Source: an uncultured Afifella sp.
GTDB lineage: Bacteria > Pseudomonadota > Alphaproteobacteria > Rhizobiales > Afifellaceae
Assembly: GCA_947259045.1 (NCBI GenBank)
Contig: CAMYKZ010000001.1
Location: forward strand, 62,001 to 126,000
Length of the DNA stretch: 64,000 nt
Direction: 5' to 3'
This document shows positions 43,563 through 50,746 of this stretch, one piece after another; positions within the stretch are counted from its first letter, which is position 1, and the number at the start of each line of letters is the position of its first letter. The position numbers and the translations under genes are program-made. Under the pieces are notes generated by a model. That model had not been told where the DNA came from. It worked only from the letters and a program-made list of their open reading frames with translations, and made no database searches.

Positions 43563-44555
43563 CTACTTTGCCAGGCAGCTGTCGACGTTGTTCTTGTCGC
43601 AGACATCCAGCCCGGTATAGATCGGATCATTGACCGATTTGCCGGCAGCCAGATCCTTCAGGATGAACATGGCCTGATAGCCCATTTCAAACGGCCGCTG
43701 GCCAACCTGGCCGTTCGACAGGCCATCCTTCAGCTGTTCCATCTGCATCGGCAGCGTATCGGCGACGATGATTGACAGTTCGCCGGAATCCATCTTGGCC
43801 TTGTAGGGCTCGACCGCCTGGCGGTAGGCATTGTCGAACCATTGCGTAAAGGCTCCGGTTGAGATGAACGCCGCCAGATCGGCTTCCTTGGCCAGGATAT
43901 CGGTCATGCCCTGAACCGCCTTGTTGCCGTCATCGTCGGTGATCAGCGGGCAGCCGGCCACTTCCGTCCAGCCGTTATCGCCGGCCAGCGGATCGCCCGG
44001 AGGCGTCGTGCCGGACCGTCCGCCAAGCGTGTCGCGGATGCCCTGCAGGCGCTCATTATGGTTGGCTGCCGCGGCGCCGCCGGTCTGCAGGCAGACCTTG
44101 CCGCCATCGGGCTGCAGTTTCTGGGCGATGGTCGCCAGGTTGACGCCGATATCGTAATTCTTGGTGCCGAGATAGGTCGCGCGAATATCCTTGTCTTTCT
44201 CAAGAACATCGGAATCCCAGGTCATGACCGGAATACCGGCGGCAACCGCCGCCTTAAGGGCCTTGCCCATGGCCGGAGCGTTTGACGGGGCGACCGCAAT
44301 GCCGTCGACGCCCTGACTGATCAGATCCTGGACGATCTGGATCTGCTCAAGCTCGGTATGCTCGCCCGGGCCGATATAGACGCATTCCACATCGCCAAGC
44401 TCTTCCTGCGCCTTGTAACAGCCGTCGCGGGCCAGATCGAAGAACGGATTGTTCATCGCCTTCGGCACCAGCGCCAGTTTCAGTTTGCTCTGCGCGACAG
44501 CGATGCCGGGCAGTGCAATGGCAACAATTGTTGCTGCCAGTATCAGTCTTTTCAT
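43563..44555 (-). CDS. Sugar ABC transporter substrate-binding protein
   Basis: 330-residue periplasmic-binding protein of the ribose/xylose class (PBP1) with signal peptide (LILAATIVAIALPGIAVA). The mature start LALVPKAMNNPFFDLARDG, the QDLISQGVDGIAVAPSN segment and GIPVMTWDSDV are the sugar-binding landmarks. Third gene of the ABC operon, 45 bases after the permease gene. Arrangement ATPase-permease-binding protein resembles fructose/ribose-type systems; the actual sugar or polyol is undetermined. Confidence 0.92.
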   Translation of the reverse strand: MKRLILAATIVAIALPGIAVAQSKLKLALVPKAMNNPFFDLARDGCYKAQEELGDVECVYIGPGEHTELEQIQIVQDLISQGVDGIAVAPSNAPAMGKALKAAVAAGIPVMTWDSDVLEKDKDIRATYLGTKNYDIGVNLATIAQKLQPDGGKVCLQTGGAAAANHNERLQGIRDTLGGRSGTTPPGDPLAGDNGWTEVAGCPLITDDDGNKAVQGMTDILAKEADLAAFISTGAFTQWFDNAYRQAVEPYKAKMDSGELSIIVADTLPMQMEQLKDGLSNGQVGQRPFEMGYQAMFILKDLAAGKSVNDPIYTGLDVCDKNNVDSCLAK

Positions 44556-44600
44556 GATCGTCCTCCCAATTGGGTTTACACAAATTAGCGGTCGATCCGG

Positions 44601-45620
44601 TCAGGATTTTCCGCGGTTGCGGATCTGTTCCAGAAGCACCGCAAGGATCAGAAACAGACCAACAAAGAACTGCTGCCAGAGGGCGTCGATGCCCGCCAGC
44701 AACAGGGAATTCCGGATAAGTTCCATCAGCGCCGCGCCGATCGGTGCGCCGAATGCGAACGCCACGCCGCCCATCAGATTGGCGCCGCCGATGACAGTTG
44801 CGGCAATAACGTTGAGTTCGTAGGTCTGGCCGATGGCGTTTGTCACCGATCCGAACCAGCCGACCAGCAGGAAGGCGGCAAGCCCGGCGCACAGGGAGCT
44901 GATGACATAGACGGAGACAATGACCCGTTCCACCGGAATTCCGGACAGTTTGGCGGCCTGGGCGTTGCCGCCGACGGCATAGACCCAGCGCCCCCATGTG
45001 GAATAACGGTAAGCCCACCAGAAGACACAGGTCAGTATGATCAGAACCCAGACCGGGTTGGGCACGCCGATAATGCTCTCGCCGCCGACCCATTCAAACA
45101 GATCCTGGTCAGGGCCGAACGCGTAGATCATTTTGTTGTTCGACATGACCTGGGCGATGGAGCGCGCCATCGCCAGCATGCCGAGCGTCACGATGAACGG
45201 CGCCATGCGCAGATAGGCAATCAGTACCCCGTTGATCAGCCCGACCAGAGCGGCGGCGCCCATGCAGGCGGCAAATCCGAATCCGATGCCGTAGCCGGCC
45301 TCCATGACAAGGCCGGTGACGATTCCGGTCAGCCCCATCAGCGAACCAACCGAAAGGTCGATGCCGGCCGTGGTGATCACCGCCGACATGCCCAGCGCCA
45401 TAATGCCGAAAAACGCGAAATTGCGGGTAATGTTGAACATGTTGCGTTCCGTCAGAAACACGTCGGAGACGAACGTCATGACAAGGCCAATGGCGAGGAT
45501 GGCGATGAACACCCAGAACGGCTGGGTGCGGGTCATCGCCTGCAGCCATCCCATCTCGCGGCGCTCGGTAATATCCTCGCCGATTGCCGCGTGGGAGGAT
45601 GAATGGGTTTCTGTCGTCAT
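44601..45620 (-). CDS. Sugar ABC transporter permease
   Basis: 339-residue inner-membrane permease of the RbsC/XylH type with about nine to ten helices. It has AVITTAGIDLSVGSLMGLTGIVTG, AYLRMAPFIVTLGML and VIGGANLMGGVAFAFGAPIGAAL, which are diagnostic of the family. Its ATG overlaps the stop of the ATPase gene (45617-45620), so translation is coupled. Confidence 0.94.
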   Translation of the reverse strand: MTTETHSSSHAAIGEDITERREMGWLQAMTRTQPFWVFIAILAIGLVMTFVSDVFLTERNMFNITRNFAFFGIMALGMSAVITTAGIDLSVGSLMGLTGIVTGLVMEAGYGIGFGFAACMGAAALVGLINGVLIAYLRMAPFIVTLGMLAMARSIAQVMSNNKMIYAFGPDQDLFEWVGGESIIGVPNPVWVLIILTCVFWWAYRYSTWGRWVYAVGGNAQAAKLSGIPVERVIVSVYVISSLCAGLAAFLLVGWFGSVTNAIGQTYELNVIAATVIGGANLMGGVAFAFGAPIGAALMELIRNSLLLAGIDALWQQFFVGLFLILAVLLEQIRNRGKS

Positions 45621-46378
45621 GCCGTTTCAATCGCCCCCGTAATCAGACCGGTCACCTCTTCCGGGCTGGTCTCGCTGATCGGCTTGTCGGCAACCTTACT
45701 GCCACGCCTGAGCACCGCCACCCGGTCACAGACCTCGAAGACGTCGGGCATCCGGTGGGAGACCAGCACGACGGCATGGTCGGTTGCTTTCAGCCGGTGG
45801 ATCAGATCGAGCACCTCGGCCACCTGGCGCACCGAAATTGCCGCCGTCGGTTCATCCATCAGAACAAGCTTGGGATCCGACAATCGCGTACGGGCAATGG
45901 CGACGGCCTGGCGCTGGCCGCCCGACATCTGGCGCACTAGATCGCGCGGCCTGGTTTCCGATTTCAGTTCGACAAAAAGCTCGCCGGCGCGGCGGAACAT
46001 CGCCGCATGATCGAGCCAGCGGAACGGGCCGACTCCCTTCTTCAGTTCGCGGCCGAGAAAGACATTCGCCGCCGCCGTCAGATTGTCGCAAAGCGCCAGA
46101 TCCTGATAGACGATCTCGATCCCCACACGCCTGGCATCGAGTGGTTTGTGGAAGGCGACAGGCCGGTCTTCCAGCACGATCTGGCCGGAAGACGGTGGGA
46201 AATTGCCGGCGATGATTTTCATCAATGTCGACTTGCCGGCGCCATTATCGCCCATCAGACCGACAACCTCGCCGTGCCCGATCGTCAGATCGACATCGGC
46301 GAGCGCGTTGATGGCGCCGAAATTCTTGGAGATCTGCTTCAGCTGGAGAACCGACAAACCATCACTCCCGTCACCCAT
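45617..46378 (-). CDS. Sugar ABC transporter ATP-binding protein, single-cassette form
   Basis: 253 residues with Walker A GDNGAGKST, signature MSGGQRQAVAIART and Walker B LVLMDEPTAA. Ribose-type importers usually have a fused double cassette of about 500 residues; this is the short, single-cassette type, as in the FrcA-like fructose transporters, which works as a homodimer. First gene of the operon ATPase-permease-binding protein. Confidence 0.92.
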   Translation of the reverse strand: MGDGSDGLSVLQLKQISKNFGAINALADVDLTIGHGEVVGLMGDNGAGKSTLMKIIAGNFPPSSGQIVLEDRPVAFHKPLDARRVGIEIVYQDLALCDNLTAAANVFLGRELKKGVGPFRWLDHAAMFRRAGELFVELKSETRPRDLVRQMSGGQRQAVAIARTRLSDPKLVLMDEPTAAISVRQVAEVLDLIHRLKATDHAVVLVSHRMPDVFEVCDRVAVLRRGSKVADKPISETSPEEVTGLITGAIETA

Positions 46379-46709: not shown

Positions 46710-46739
46710 ATGACGATCGATCTGACGGCAAACTGCTGA
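46710..46739 (+). other. Possible 9-codon leader ORF before the TSUP gene
   Basis: ATG at 46710, preceded by GGAAAGG, opens a frame reading MTIDLTANC and ending in TGA at 46737-46739. That TGA overlaps the ATG of the TSUP gene (TGATG), a translational-coupling arrangement. The last sense codon is Cys, immediately before the stop. Coupling is seen in sequence; any regulatory role is inference. Confidence 0.35.
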
Positions 46740-47485
46740 TGAGCGACTTCCTGCTCTTCGTTGCGGTCGGATTTTCCGCGCAGCTTATCGATGGCGCGAT
46801 CGGTATGGCCTATGGCCTGTTCAGCACCTCAGTTCTGCTCAGCATCGGGGTGACGCCCGCAGTCGCCAGCGCCAGCGTTCATGCGGCCGAAGTTTTCACC
46901 ACTGGGGCCTCTGGCCTTTCCCATTGGCGCTTCGGCAACGTCAACTGGAGTATCGTCCGGCGGCTGGCTGTCCCGGGCATGATCGGAGGCGGCATTGGCG
47001 CCTATATTCTCTCCAATGTCGACGGCAGCACGATCCGTCCGTTCGTCGGGGCCTATCTGGCGGTTATGGGCGTCTGGGTGCTGTCGAAAGCGGTCCGCAA
47101 CCGGAATATGGAGGAAAAGCAGCCCCGCTTCCTAGGGGCCTTGGGTTTTACCGGCGGCTTTCTTGATGCCATCGGCGGCGGTGGTTGGGGGCCAATCGTC
47201 ACATCGTCGATGGTTGGCCAGGGCGCCAGGCCGAAGACGACGATCGGATCGACAAGATCGGCCGAATTCTTTGTCACAACGACGATCTCGATTACGTTTT
47301 TATCCACCATCGGGCTCGAGCTCTGGCCAATTATCCTTGGCCTGATTGTCGGCGGTGTATTCGCAGCGCCAATCGCCGCCTATATTGTCGGACGGGTGCC
47401 GGACCGCCCGATGATGATCATCGTCGGGATCGTGATCTGCATCCTGGCGTTTCGAGAGGTCCTGCGCGGCCTTCCCATCGCCTGA
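46739..47485 (+). CDS. TSUP/TauE-SafE-family transporter
   Basis: 248-residue membrane protein with about seven to eight helices and the paired TauE/SafE motifs IDGAIGMAYG near the N-terminus and LDAIGGGGWGPIVTS in the second half. Family members move sulfite, sulfoacetate, thiosulfate and other organic or inorganic anions. No sulfur gene is next to it, so the substrate is open. It starts MSDFLLFVAVGF with coupling to a short upstream ORF. Confidence 0.92.
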   Translation: MSDFLLFVAVGFSAQLIDGAIGMAYGLFSTSVLLSIGVTPAVASASVHAAEVFTTGASGLSHWRFGNVNWSIVRRLAVPGMIGGGIGAYILSNVDGSTIRPFVGAYLAVMGVWVLSKAVRNRNMEEKQPRFLGALGFTGGFLDAIGGGGWGPIVTSSMVGQGARPKTTIGSTRSAEFFVTTTISITFLSTIGLELWPIILGLIVGGVFAAPIAAYIVGRVPDRPMMIIVGIVICILAFREVLRGLPIA

Positions 47486-47623
47486 GCATCAAACAGGAAC
47501 AGGAGACGCGGTTCGTCCGTGACCGGCAGAATTTCCGGGGAAGCCGCGGAATCCTGGCAATTGGCCATCGCCCGCCGCGCCGATTTGCAATATGCTGAGG
47601 CCCGCATGACGGGAGGCACAGAT

Positions 47624-47908
47624 ATGCTGTTCATGATCATCGAGCGTTTCGAAAACGACGATATGCTGCCGGTCTACCGGCGCCTTCGTGACGAGGGGCG
47701 GCAATTGCCGGATGGACTGACCTATGTCGATAGCTGGATCGAGCCGAATTTTGCCCGCTGCTTTCAACTGATGGAATGCGACGATGCATCTTTGCTGCAG
47801 CAATGGGTTCTGGCCTGGCGCGGAACCGGTGCGAGATTTGAAATCGTCCCGGTCGTGCCGAGCGCCGAGACCCGCAACGTGGTCGCACCGTGGCTTGAGG
47901 CGGACTGA
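47624..47908 (+). CDS. DUF3303-domain protein
   Basis: 94 residues, small ferredoxin-like alpha/beta protein of the DUF3303 family, recognised from MLFMIIERFENDD, GLTYVDSWIEPNFARCFQLMECDD and RFEIVPVV. Function is not established; the fold resembles antibiotic-monooxygenase/YciI-type small enzymes. GGGAGGC precedes the ATG at 47624; the open frame runs back to 47519 without family support. It follows the TSUP gene on the same strand. Confidence 0.87.
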   Translation: MLFMIIERFENDDMLPVYRRLRDEGRQLPDGLTYVDSWIEPNFARCFQLMECDDASLLQQWVLAWRGTGARFEIVPVVPSAETRNVVAPWLEAD

Positions 47909-47930: not shown

Positions 47931-49127
47931 TCACGACCTCAGAAACGGCAAATTCTTTGGTTGCATCTGATATTGCCACCTGCAAACCTCGTCCGGATCA
48001 GCCCCTCGCCGGTTTGGGAGATAGGCCTCGATCGCCTGCCCCCGGCCCGCCGCGTATTCGCGGGCGACGGCGCTCCAATCGATTTGATGTGCCAAAGACC
48101 AGTCCGGCCGGGTAACTGGCGTGTCGGTTGTTTTGCGGACGATTTGGATGGCCTGACCATCTGAATAATCAATCACCCGCCGGCCTTCGCGAAAGGCGTT
48201 CAGGGACTGGTCCCATCGCTGTGCGGGCCAGATCAGACTCATGCTCTTTTCGACGGGATCATATTCGGCGGCGAACAAGGTTCCGAAACCTTCCGCGTAG
48301 CGATCCTGATGCAAGGGTGTCTTCAGAAAATGCGTGCTCAGACATTGAGGAGCCGTCGCCAATTGTTGCAGATGGGCGTGCCTTTCAAAGGTGCGGGTAA
48401 ACCCTGCCCGCTCGGGCCGTTCCGCACCGCTTTGGTGGTTTGTGGCGATGGCCAGAGGCATCAATTTCACCCCGCCGCCCGGCGACAATTCGATACTCGC
48501 AGTCCGTCCCGACCTGTCTGCCAGCACCACATTGTAAGCCATATGCGAGGGTACCCGGCGGAAGACTTTCATCGCGTCGTCAACAGTGAAACAGGTTTCC
48601 AGAACGTAGCGCAGGATCGTCGTGATGCCAAAACCCGTTGCCGTTATGGACCGTCCGCCATAGGCCAGCGCCACGCTGAGGCCGGCATCGTTGATGCCAT
48701 CCGACAGACCCCATAGAAACTCCACCATCCCCATGACCGGCCGCCCTGTCCATTCCGTGCGCATCAGCAGACCTTCGTTCAGGTCGGGCGACAGATCGTA
48801 ATTGCGCACCAGCCGGACATCGTCGCCATCGGCCATCGCCGCCAGGGAACATCCGCCAAGGTATTGCGGCGGGCACCATGTCGACAGAAACCGTGCCGCA
48901 CGGTCTGAGCCTCCGGCGAGATGGACCAGCCGGTCATAGACCGGGAGCAGTTCAGGCATGTACCGGCGCAGCGCCGATCTGCACTTCGGCCTGGATGGCC
49001 CCAGGTCACCGCCGCGGGCCACGAACCATGCCTCATAGGCGGGCCAGGACCGGCGCCACCGCGCCGACCATTTCGGTCCCGGCGCCGCTTCGCTTACGGC
49101 GTCGAATGTCAGGGTTGTGGCGGTCAT
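47931..49127 (-). CDS. C45-family autoproteolytic acyltransferase/hydrolase
   Basis: 398-residue Ntn-hydrolase of the acyl-CoA:6-aminopenicillanate acyltransferase (peptidase C45) family. The nucleophile is predicted as Cys93 in LGGCSLAAM, with the downstream VRNYDLSPDL and EFLWGLSDGINDAGLSV typical of the family. Related enzymes hydrolyse or transfer acyl groups on amides. Autocleavage before the Cys is expected. The ATG overlaps the stop of the upstream esterase gene by one base (TGATG), which means coupled translation. There is no signal peptide, so the enzyme is cytosolic. Confidence 0.87.
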   Translation of the reverse strand: MTATTLTFDAVSEAAPGPKWSARWRRSWPAYEAWFVARGGDLGPSRPKCRSALRRYMPELLPVYDRLVHLAGGSDRAARFLSTWCPPQYLGGCSLAAMADGDDVRLVRNYDLSPDLNEGLLMRTEWTGRPVMGMVEFLWGLSDGINDAGLSVALAYGGRSITATGFGITTILRYVLETCFTVDDAMKVFRRVPSHMAYNVVLADRSGRTASIELSPGGGVKLMPLAIATNHQSGAERPERAGFTRTFERHAHLQQLATAPQCLSTHFLKTPLHQDRYAEGFGTLFAAEYDPVEKSMSLIWPAQRWDQSLNAFREGRRVIDYSDGQAIQIVRKTTDTPVTRPDWSLAHQIDWSAVAREYAAGRGQAIEAYLPNRRGADPDEVCRWQYQMQPKNLPFLRS

Positions 49128-50242
49128 CAGAGTTCCCCGTCCGAAGTGTCGAAAAAGAAACGGATCATTTCGGCACTGGCGTCAGGGCCTTTTGCATCCG
49201 TGAAAGAGCCCGATGGATGGCCCCCGGACCAGGCATGTCCCATCCCGTCGATCATCCAATATTCCAGATCCGCACGGCAGCCGGGGGTCGCTGTGATCGT
49301 CCGGGTGAACGAACAGCCCGAGCTGTTGCCATTTTCGACTGTCTGGATGGTCTGCTGCGGCAGCCGGTCCAGCACATGACGTGCAATTGTCTCGCTGTTG
49401 GAGGGATGCACCGTCGCATCCTCAGTTCCGTGAAAGATTATGGTGCGTACGTTTGCCGGGTTCCCTGCCGCACCGGGTTGCTCGTGAGCGGTTCCGGCCA
49501 TGGCGGCATAGGCGGACGGCACGTCCCTGGCTGCGCCGAAGGGCAAGCCGGAATGGGCCCCGACGCCGGCAAAAACGTCGGGATAGGTCTCACCCAGGAT
49601 CACCGCCATCGCCGCCCCTGCCGACAACCCGGCGACAAAGGTTCGCTCAGGCGCAACGCCATGCTCGCTCATTGCCAGCCTTGCCAGTCCCGCAAGGATC
49701 GCAGGCTCTCCCCGATCACGCTGCTGGTCGCCGCGGCTGAACCAGTTCCAGCATGATTGTGCATTGTCGCCGCGAGACTGCTGCGGGTAAATCACGACGA
49801 AGCGGTGTTTCTCGGCCAACGCGTTGATGCCGGTTCCGGCTGCAAAATCTTCCGGCGTCTGGGTGCATCCGTGCAGCATGACCAGGATTCCGGTCACATC
49901 GCCTGCCCCAGTGGCCGGAACATAGGTCCGGTAGGCACGGCTTCCTGCACTGCAGGAAAACCGGTCGTGCCGAAAGTCCGCACCGTCCGCGATAGCCAGG
50001 CCACCATTGACGTTTGCGCCTGGCCGCAACGAGAGGCCTGACAGAGACAGGCCCGGATTTGGCGGGATATTCGGTAACACCGGCCCCGGCGGTATGCCGG
50101 CGTCTGTCTTTCCGGTGTGGTCGTCATTGATGAGCCCATGCTGTGCAAGCGTGCGCCGCACGAGATCATTTGCAGCCGAAAAACGCTTTGAGCGCGCGTC
50201 ATCGGTCGTCCGGCGCAATGCGCCGCCGTTCAGTTTGAACAT
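49127..50242 (-). CDS. PHB-depolymerase-family esterase
   Basis: 371-residue alpha/beta-hydrolase of the Esterase_phb type. The oxyanion segment is LHGCTQTPEDFA, the nucleophile Ser207 in GLSAGAAM, and the His is in GMGHAWSGG. Family members include medium-chain PHA depolymerases, feruloyl and acetylxylan esterases. There is no signal peptide and a Pro/Gly-rich N-terminal linker, so it may act inside the cell; its substrate is undecided. It lies 30 bases downstream of the RHH regulator gene and is coupled to the C45 gene. Confidence 0.88.
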   Translation of the reverse strand: MFKLNGGALRRTTDDARSKRFSAANDLVRRTLAQHGLINDDHTGKTDAGIPPGPVLPNIPPNPGLSLSGLSLRPGANVNGGLAIADGADFRHDRFSCSAGSRAYRTYVPATGAGDVTGILVMLHGCTQTPEDFAAGTGINALAEKHRFVVIYPQQSRGDNAQSCWNWFSRGDQQRDRGEPAILAGLARLAMSEHGVAPERTFVAGLSAGAAMAVILGETYPDVFAGVGAHSGLPFGAARDVPSAYAAMAGTAHEQPGAAGNPANVRTIIFHGTEDATVHPSNSETIARHVLDRLPQQTIQTVENGNSSGCSFTRTITATPGCRADLEYWMIDGMGHAWSGGHPSGSFTDAKGPDASAEMIRFFFDTSDGEL

Positions 50243-50272
50243 TTCTATAGTCCTTATTGTGGATTTCCGGTG

Positions 50273-50698
50273 TTATCGAATGCGGTCGGCAAGTGCCTTT
50301 TTGACATCCGCGCTGGCCTGCAGGGCTCCCAGCACGGTGATGGAGCCGATGGTTTCCAACGCAAGTTCCGGCGTGACATCCGGGTCGATCCGGGCGAGCC
50401 CGACAACCTTGACATGCAGCACTTCACCTGCATCCCGCAATGCCTCCAGATCCTTGCTTGTATAGTCGCGAAGACCCAGTTCCATCGTATGCCGCTCAAT
50501 GGAGCTGCTGACGATATCGACGTGGCTGTCCAACTGGTTCCGGATCGCCGTGCGAATGAGATCCGTGCGGTTGGAATAGAAGCCCTCCTGAACAAGAAGA
50601 TCGACCCGGCCCAAATCGACATAACCGAGATTGATGGTTATTTTTTCGCTATCCGGCGGTTTGTCGCGCAGTTGCCTGATGTTGCTCATTAAGGTCAT
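50273..50698 (-). CDS. CopG/RHH-family transcriptional regulator
   Basis: 141 residues. The N-terminal RHH domain reads KITINLGYVDLGRVDLLVQ and FYSNRTDLIRTAIRNQL; a C-terminal part of about 70 residues, of unknown family, may bind a ligand or oligomerise. GGATGGAGA precedes the ATG. It is the first gene of a three-gene operon with the esterase and C45 genes, and a palindrome lies over its promoter. Confidence 0.87.
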   Translation of the reverse strand: MTLMSNIRQLRDKPPDSEKITINLGYVDLGRVDLLVQEGFYSNRTDLIRTAIRNQLDSHVDIVSSSIERHTMELGLRDYTSKDLEALRDAGEVLHVKVVGLARIDPDVTPELALETIGSITVLGALQASADVKKALADRIR

Positions 50699-50701
50699 TC
50701 T

Positions 50702-50746
50702 CCATCCATGTGGATGGTATATGGATGTTTATTGACTTTTGGCAAG
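50702..50746 (-). promoter_or_regulatory. Promoter and candidate operator of the RHH/esterase/C45 operon
   Basis: On the minus strand TTGCCA (50741-50746) and ATATAC are 17 bases apart, a fair sigma-70-type promoter. Directly downstream lies the palindrome CCATCCA-N2-TGGATGG (50702-50717), with a further ATGGATG half-site at 50721-50727 that overlaps the -10. The arrangement suits autorepression by the RHH protein encoded next. Binding is inference. Confidence 0.5.

Follow-up and report, generated by a model that had tools for sequence, protein, structure and literature searches.

Isopenicillin N acyltransferase, the best-matching described C45 enzyme (PF03417, NF040521, 2x1c), cleaves itself between Gly102 and Cys103 (PMC2692852), and its catalytic residues are Cys103, Asn119, Asp121, Asn246 and Arg268 (PMC13044924). 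LtPHBase (PDB 8daj), the nearest solved relative of the esterase described below, hydrolyses PHB, PLA and PCL (PMC11544428). Regulatory ribbon-helix-helix (RHH) proteins of the NikR type carry an RHH end and a C-terminal alpha/beta domain on one chain and have a palindromic operator at their own or a target promoter. Members of the RHH_8 family (PF17723) are annotated as 'CopG family transcriptional regulator'. In the window, the whole 64,000-nucleotide stretch of DNA that was analysed, an RHH_8 regulator, an esterase and a C45 enzyme are encoded side by side behind a palindromic sequence. These parts belong to known families, and the operon and its operator seem to be undescribed. Literature searches, covering mostly non-subscription papers, found none describing the three-gene operon, nothing relevant on RHH or CopG proteins with a PHB depolymerase or on C45 in Roseobacter, and no mention of PF17723, the string RHH_8 occurring only in unrelated uses. 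A search for the operator half-sites returned unrelated papers only.

Layout of the locus and its two enzymes

The three genes lie on the minus strand in the order RHH_8 regulator (50273-50698, 141 aa), PHB-depolymerase-family serine esterase (49127-50242, 371 aa) and C45 autoproteolytic acyltransferase/hydrolase (47931-49127, 398 aa). The tight packing and the families given in the preliminary description agree with the open reading frames and profile matches found here. The regulator and esterase genes are separated by 30 bp. The esterase and C45 genes overlap by one base in the TGATG junction already pointed out in that description, through which the C45 gene is predicted to be translationally coupled to the esterase gene. 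The trio and its operator are not a chance arrangement, because both the linkage and the operator recur across many genomes.

The C45 protein matches the families AAT (PF03417, E = 9.4e-29) and C45_proenzyme (NF040521, E = 7e-42, 143.9 bits against a cut-off of 85). Its model (pLDDT 87.5) has a clear best match in isopenicillin N acyltransferase (2x1c; Z 28.1, 299 aligned residues, r.m.s.d. 3.2), the next families following at Z 23 and below, and the modelled Ntn fold resembles that of penicillin V acylase too. Structural comparison aligns Cys93 with the N-terminal nucleophile of mature chains. Cys93 (codon at 48849..48851, minus strand) is the predicted nucleophile, freed by self-cleavage after Gly92, and the Gly92-Cys93 bond probably corresponds to the Gly102-Cys103 self-cleavage site. 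Together with Cys93, the residues Asn109, Asp111, Asn230 and Arg249 complete the predicted C45 catalytic set, and comparison with 52 relatives showed all five to be invariant. They correspond to Cys103, Asn119, Asp121, Asn246 and Arg268 of isopenicillin N acyltransferase, the last two being paired by sequence order and motif. The predicted activity, that of an amide hydrolase or acyltransferase, is supported by the modelled fold and the catalytic residues. Although the fold, the Gly-Cys site and the five catalytic residues are shared, the protein differs from isopenicillin N acyltransferase in its sequence (13% identity over the structural alignment), its C-terminal tail and its gene context. 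The tail, residues 342-375 (48003..48104, minus strand), is conserved as DW..A..IDW..vA.dYA.GrG..I..YLP; it is common to most regulator-linked C45 proteins, and other relatives stop near residue 320-340. Outside the window, the same genome encodes a second C45 protein (G000:C36:40258-41205) that is 46% identical and belongs to another C45 clade, with no RHH_8 or esterase gene nearby. The substrates of bacterial C45 enzymes are, to our knowledge, mostly unknown.

The esterase matches Esterase_PHB (PF10503, E = 6e-35) and NF050058 (E = 5.3e-92, 308.2 bits against a cut-off of 150), and its predicted triad Ser207-Asp275-His336 is invariant in 18 aligned relatives. The nearest solved kin of the protein, LtPHBase foremost, are polyester, feruloyl and acetylxylan esterases. 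It resembles the short-chain PHA depolymerases of type 1 (NF050058) and LtPHBase in its catalytic domain, which scores above the cut-off and keeps Ser-Asp-His. However, unlike them it shows no clear sign of a signal peptide, carries an additional conserved segment at its N-terminus and is encoded next to the gene of an RHH regulator, which would control it. The NF050058 match begins only at residue 95, and the conserved segment of 37 residues (50132..50242, minus strand; consensus FNxGAxRxAxxxAR...AANDLVQRTLAQHGL) precedes the catalytic domain. Segments resembling these 37 residues also occur in some relatives that have only the regulator-esterase pair. Inspection of the sequence, the only means used for this point, revealed no signal-peptide-like start in the esterase or its relatives, in agreement with the preliminary description.

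Gene linkage across genomes

Comparisons across genomes showed that the esterase is the widespread partner of the regulator. Of 297 genomes sampled from the order, 25 carry RHH_8, and an esterase gene lies directly downstream of the full-length RHH_8 gene in 25/25 copies (the window copy and the partial L045 left out). The same arrangement was found in 7/7 further loci of a class-level sample and 11/11 further loci of a phylum-level sample, several of them outside the class, so that the pair is present at 43/43 other full-length RHH_8 loci across the three samples. In the order sample, the genomes with C45 and those with RHH_8 overlap only in the window's own genome. From this sample the trio was at one stage read as not conserved, a reading overturned when a scan of species genomes with the C45 profile found the trio in Rhodobacterales.

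The counts from that scan refer to the matches listed and are not a census. At least 31 loci have a C45 gene at 58-79% identity to that of the window, and 29 of them have enough upstream sequence to be evaluated. The preliminary description had staked its proposal on the three genes being linked in other genomes; this check was run and did not go against the proposal: among the matches listed RHH_8 lies upstream in 29/29 evaluable loci of this C45 clade. An esterase gene stands between RHH_8 and C45 in 26 of these 29, again among the matches listed, and at L083, L097 and L099 RHH_8 is followed by C45 without an esterase. For C45 genes at 38-47% identity, 0/49 listed loci have RHH_8 or the esterase nearby, a few of them offering only ~1 kb of upstream sequence. 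The contrast of 29/29 with 0/49 gives a Fisher p of 4.7e-22 among the matches listed, a value inflated by kinship. The trio-bearing genomes among the matches listed are nearly all Rhodobacterales, many of them marine Rhodobacter-type bacteria; two more trios, L159 and L186, come from the class and phylum samples and may overlap the named genomes. The trio is also found on Sulfitobacter pontiacus plasmids, annotated as CopG regulator, PHB depolymerase family esterase and C45 family peptidase, and the pair alone on plasmid pB of Cereibacter sphaeroides 2.4.1. In a Granulosicoccus MAG (L099:4415-6990) the regulator gene is flanked on either side by a C45 gene (40% and 61% identity to that of the window), without an esterase.

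When the open reading frames around 29 RHH-C45 loci and 20 pair-only loci were clustered, no gene beyond these two or three recurred broadly. A wider neighbourhood search linked no transporter, CoA ligase or other pathway gene, and no luxI/luxR or resistance neighbour is conserved at the loci. The earlier view of the three genes as one unit holds in that the trio is conserved, but it has to be revised in its centre. The core unit is the RHH-esterase pair, spread across Proteobacteria, and C45 is a lineage-specific third gene, mostly of Rhodobacterales.

A quick tree placed the regulator-linked C45 proteins in one clade (31 rows among the matches listed, SH-aLRT 100), in which the single member without a label, L074, is truncated at the end of its contig. 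The RHH partners of these C45 proteins do not form one clade: the constraint was rejected with a p-AU of 5.9e-5, and of 4.8e-12 once the long rows L099 and L159 were left out. These p-AU values are indicative, the RHH proteins being short and the group having been inspected on the tree before the test. On the RHH tree, the Palleronia regulator adjoins a pair-only lineage. As the C45 clade is monophyletic while its RHH partners are not, the association has either persisted or arisen anew in more than one regulator lineage. Kinship limits the independence of the genomes, and several copies sit on Sulfitobacter plasmids, so mere shared descent or plasmid carriage might account for the pairing, with the palindrome belonging to another factor. 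However, the unit persists although its flanks are different in each genome, the linked RHH proteins are not one clade, and operator matches track the RHH_8 gene across the 297 genomes, which makes this explanation highly improbable. Horizontal transfer of the trio into this genome, or misassignment of the contig, was considered as well. Ten genomes of the same family are without both RHH_8 and this C45, and the nearest kin are from Rhodobacterales, but the GC content is flat across the region and the assembly has 5.3% contamination, a combination that would fit either transfer or a misassigned contig.

The predicted operator and the regulator

Upstream of the RHH gene, the palindrome CCATCCACATGGATGG (CCATCCA-N2-TGGATGG) is exact at 50702-50717 and occurs in this form nowhere else in the window, where five further matches carry three mismatches each, about the number expected by chance. 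A third half-site, CATCC at 50723-50727, begins 11 bp upstream of the palindrome's first arm. The resulting operator, CATCCATATACCATCCACATGGATGG (50702..50727, minus strand), comprises the half-sites CATCC, CATCC and GGATG, the first two forming a direct repeat 11 bp apart and the last two an inverted repeat. It is unique in the window, and the extended pattern has 1 exact match in the whole 4.77-Mb assembly. The palindrome and third half-site are thus present exactly as the preliminary description gave them, and its suggestion of a regulatory site over the promoter gains credit from their conservation before RHH_8 genes and from their position across the predicted -10 region.

The operator extends across the predicted -10, and on the 3' side its arm continues into a Shine-Dalgarno-like GGAG. 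A -35-like hexamer, TTGCCA (50740..50745, minus strand), stands 16-17 bp ahead of CATATA/ATATAC and is the predicted -35. The relatives' consensus here is cTTGcaa, with the first-position T kept in 56/62 aligned loci and TTG in most; a generic sigma-70 scan did not list this hexamer. An operator that lies over the predicted -10 and, in this lineage, extends its last arm into the GGAG of the ribosome-binding site fits repression, and the RHH_8 protein would repress its own promoter there.

Comparison of 62 RHH_8 loci gave the footprint consensus cTTGcaa ... CATCCATATACCATCCANNNGGATGG, in which three bases of the middle half-site (C, A and C) and three of the last (G, A and G) are invariant. The best operator matches at these loci score 15-20 of 20 fixed positions, compared with 9-15, mostly 10-11, for shuffled sequences. 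The direct half-site 11 bp upstream is present at 36 of the 62 loci and a downstream half-site at 17, and 15 have neither in exact form. With one mismatch allowed, the operator pattern has 18 matches in 16/297 genomes, every one just before an RHH_8 gene, and it is absent from the 272 genomes without RHH_8; a reversed-pattern control gave zero matches in the 297 genomes. Footprint and co-occurrence give good support to regulation by an RHH repressor at this site, to which RHH_8 would bind. Judging from these matches, the RHH_8 regulon apparently comprises one site per genome copy. The operator is kept at several phylum-level loci. At L195, a distant regulator-esterase pair, an altered palindrome, TACTCCAATTGGAGTA, lies upstream of the RHH gene in an unchanged layout and is possibly a co-evolved operator.

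The regulator matches the PF17723 profile over its whole length (E = 1.8e-49, 167.2 bits against a cut-off of 25.4, profile positions 1-119 of 119), and the operator given here is a new prediction for the family. Translation more likely begins with the ATG at 50689 (MSN...) than at 50698, because the relatives begin at the position of the former. The model (62-row alignment, pLDDT 79, pTM 0.51) predicts an N-terminal ribbon-helix-helix and a C-terminal beta-alpha-beta-alpha-beta domain of ~68 aa, and the five models disagree (pLDDT 61-79). Modelled residues 26-71 superimpose modestly, and in the N-terminal part only, on the ParD1 RHH antitoxin (Z 6.0, 46 residues, r.m.s.d. 2.1). Because ParD antitoxins head the fold matches of the RHH part, a type II toxin-antitoxin module was considered and rejected for want of a toxin partner: the conserved partners are the 371-aa esterase and the 398-aa hydrolase, with no small toxin ORF conserved alongside. 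The regulator resembles the NikR-type proteins in its two-part chain and in its palindromic, here predicted, operator; with NikR itself, only the RHH part could be aligned (residues 23-60, Z about 3), leaving the C-terminal domain unmatched. A fold search with this domain returned no confident structural relative, only weak, unrelated rows, and these weak matches of a model do not establish a new fold. As there is no confident relative and the models disagree, ligand sensing is assigned to this domain tentatively.

Proposed function and alternatives

The explanation preferred here, to which we give about an even chance, is an autorepressed three-gene operon for the intracellular hydrolysis of ester and amide bonds of related acyl compounds. 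We infer that RHH_8 would bind the three CATCC/GGATG half-sites over the -10 and the ribosome-binding site and block its own promoter until a ligand, sensed by the C-terminal domain, released it. The esterase would then cut ester bonds, presumably in the cytosol, its most likely substrates being short oligomers of 3-hydroxyalkanoates or related hydroxyacyl esters. The C45 enzyme, self-cleaved at Gly92-Cys93, would cut or exchange amide-linked acyl groups on compounds that may be of the same class. The spread of the pair and the family of the esterase point to hydroxyacyl esters as substrates. PHA synthase is present in 25/25 RHH_8 genomes of the order sample versus 240/297 overall (hypergeometric p 0.004, with genome size and kinship as confounders).

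The enzymes need not act sequentially on one molecule, because the regulator also pairs with the esterase alone in most lineages, or with C45 alone (L083, L097, L099). Of the earlier proposal of an ester hydrolase and an amide hydrolase under one regulator, the amide hydrolase or acyltransferase is upheld by the predicted fold and catalytic residues, but the idea of a single shared molecule is not required. The N-acyl amino acids, acyl-homoserine lactones and beta-lactam-like molecules that the preliminary description offered as examples of the substrate are conjectures. A common substrate class for both enzymes is the simplest account, and separate substrates under one inducer form the main rival. 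According to that rival, two independent enzymes share one promoter, the esterase serving the turnover of polyhydroxybutyrate or its oligomers and C45 having joined for a different substrate needed under the same inducing condition. The far wider spread of the pair than of the trio, the three loci that keep RHH and C45 without the esterase, and the presence of PHA synthase in every one of the 25 order-sample genomes with RHH_8 speak for such independence. However, the tight TGATG-type coupling, the fixed gene order and the association of one C45 clade with RHH lineages that are not one clade suggest a functional match, and we consider independent enzymes possible but rather doubtful.

The operon might instead inactivate signals or antibiotics, with C45 deacylating acyl-homoserine lactones or beta-lactams, the esterase cutting the lactone or ester, and the regulator sensing the compound. 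Rhodobacterales commonly use acyl-homoserine lactones, and the modelled C45 fold is that of a penicillin acyltransferase with a resemblance to penicillin V acylase. MacQ, another Ntn hydrolase, is reported to act on both acyl-homoserine lactones and beta-lactams (PMC5566955). However, the loci give no hint of quorum sensing or resistance, and the nearest solved kin of the esterase act on polyesters and on feruloyl and acetylxylan esters. MacQ, moreover, is presumably not a C45 enzyme. Inactivation thus appears unlikely.

Returning to the hydrolysis of related acyl compounds, a broader and quite tentative extension is a module widespread in Proteobacteria, in which RHH_8 would be dedicated to repressing hydroxyacyl-ester metabolism until a ligand released it, acting through a CATCC operator on a regulon of one site. 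The C45 gene of Rhodobacterales would extend this module to mixed ester- and amide-linked hydroxyacyl compounds. In many Proteobacteria, an uncharacterised regulator family gains a precise predicted operator together with a fixed partner enzyme, and the ligand and regulon of RHH_8 are therefore directly testable. If the ligand is a hydroxyacyl compound, the regulator would represent a new point of control over storage-polyester or hydroxyacyl metabolism in bacteria, and a physiological context for bacterial C45 enzymes would follow.

In the window, plus-strand genes for a TauE/SafE-like permease and a DUF3303 protein (46739-47908) are convergent to the 3' end of the operon. Further along, a minus-strand trio of open reading frames (43563-46378) resembles, by eye, a sugar-type ABC transporter with binding protein, permease and ATPase.
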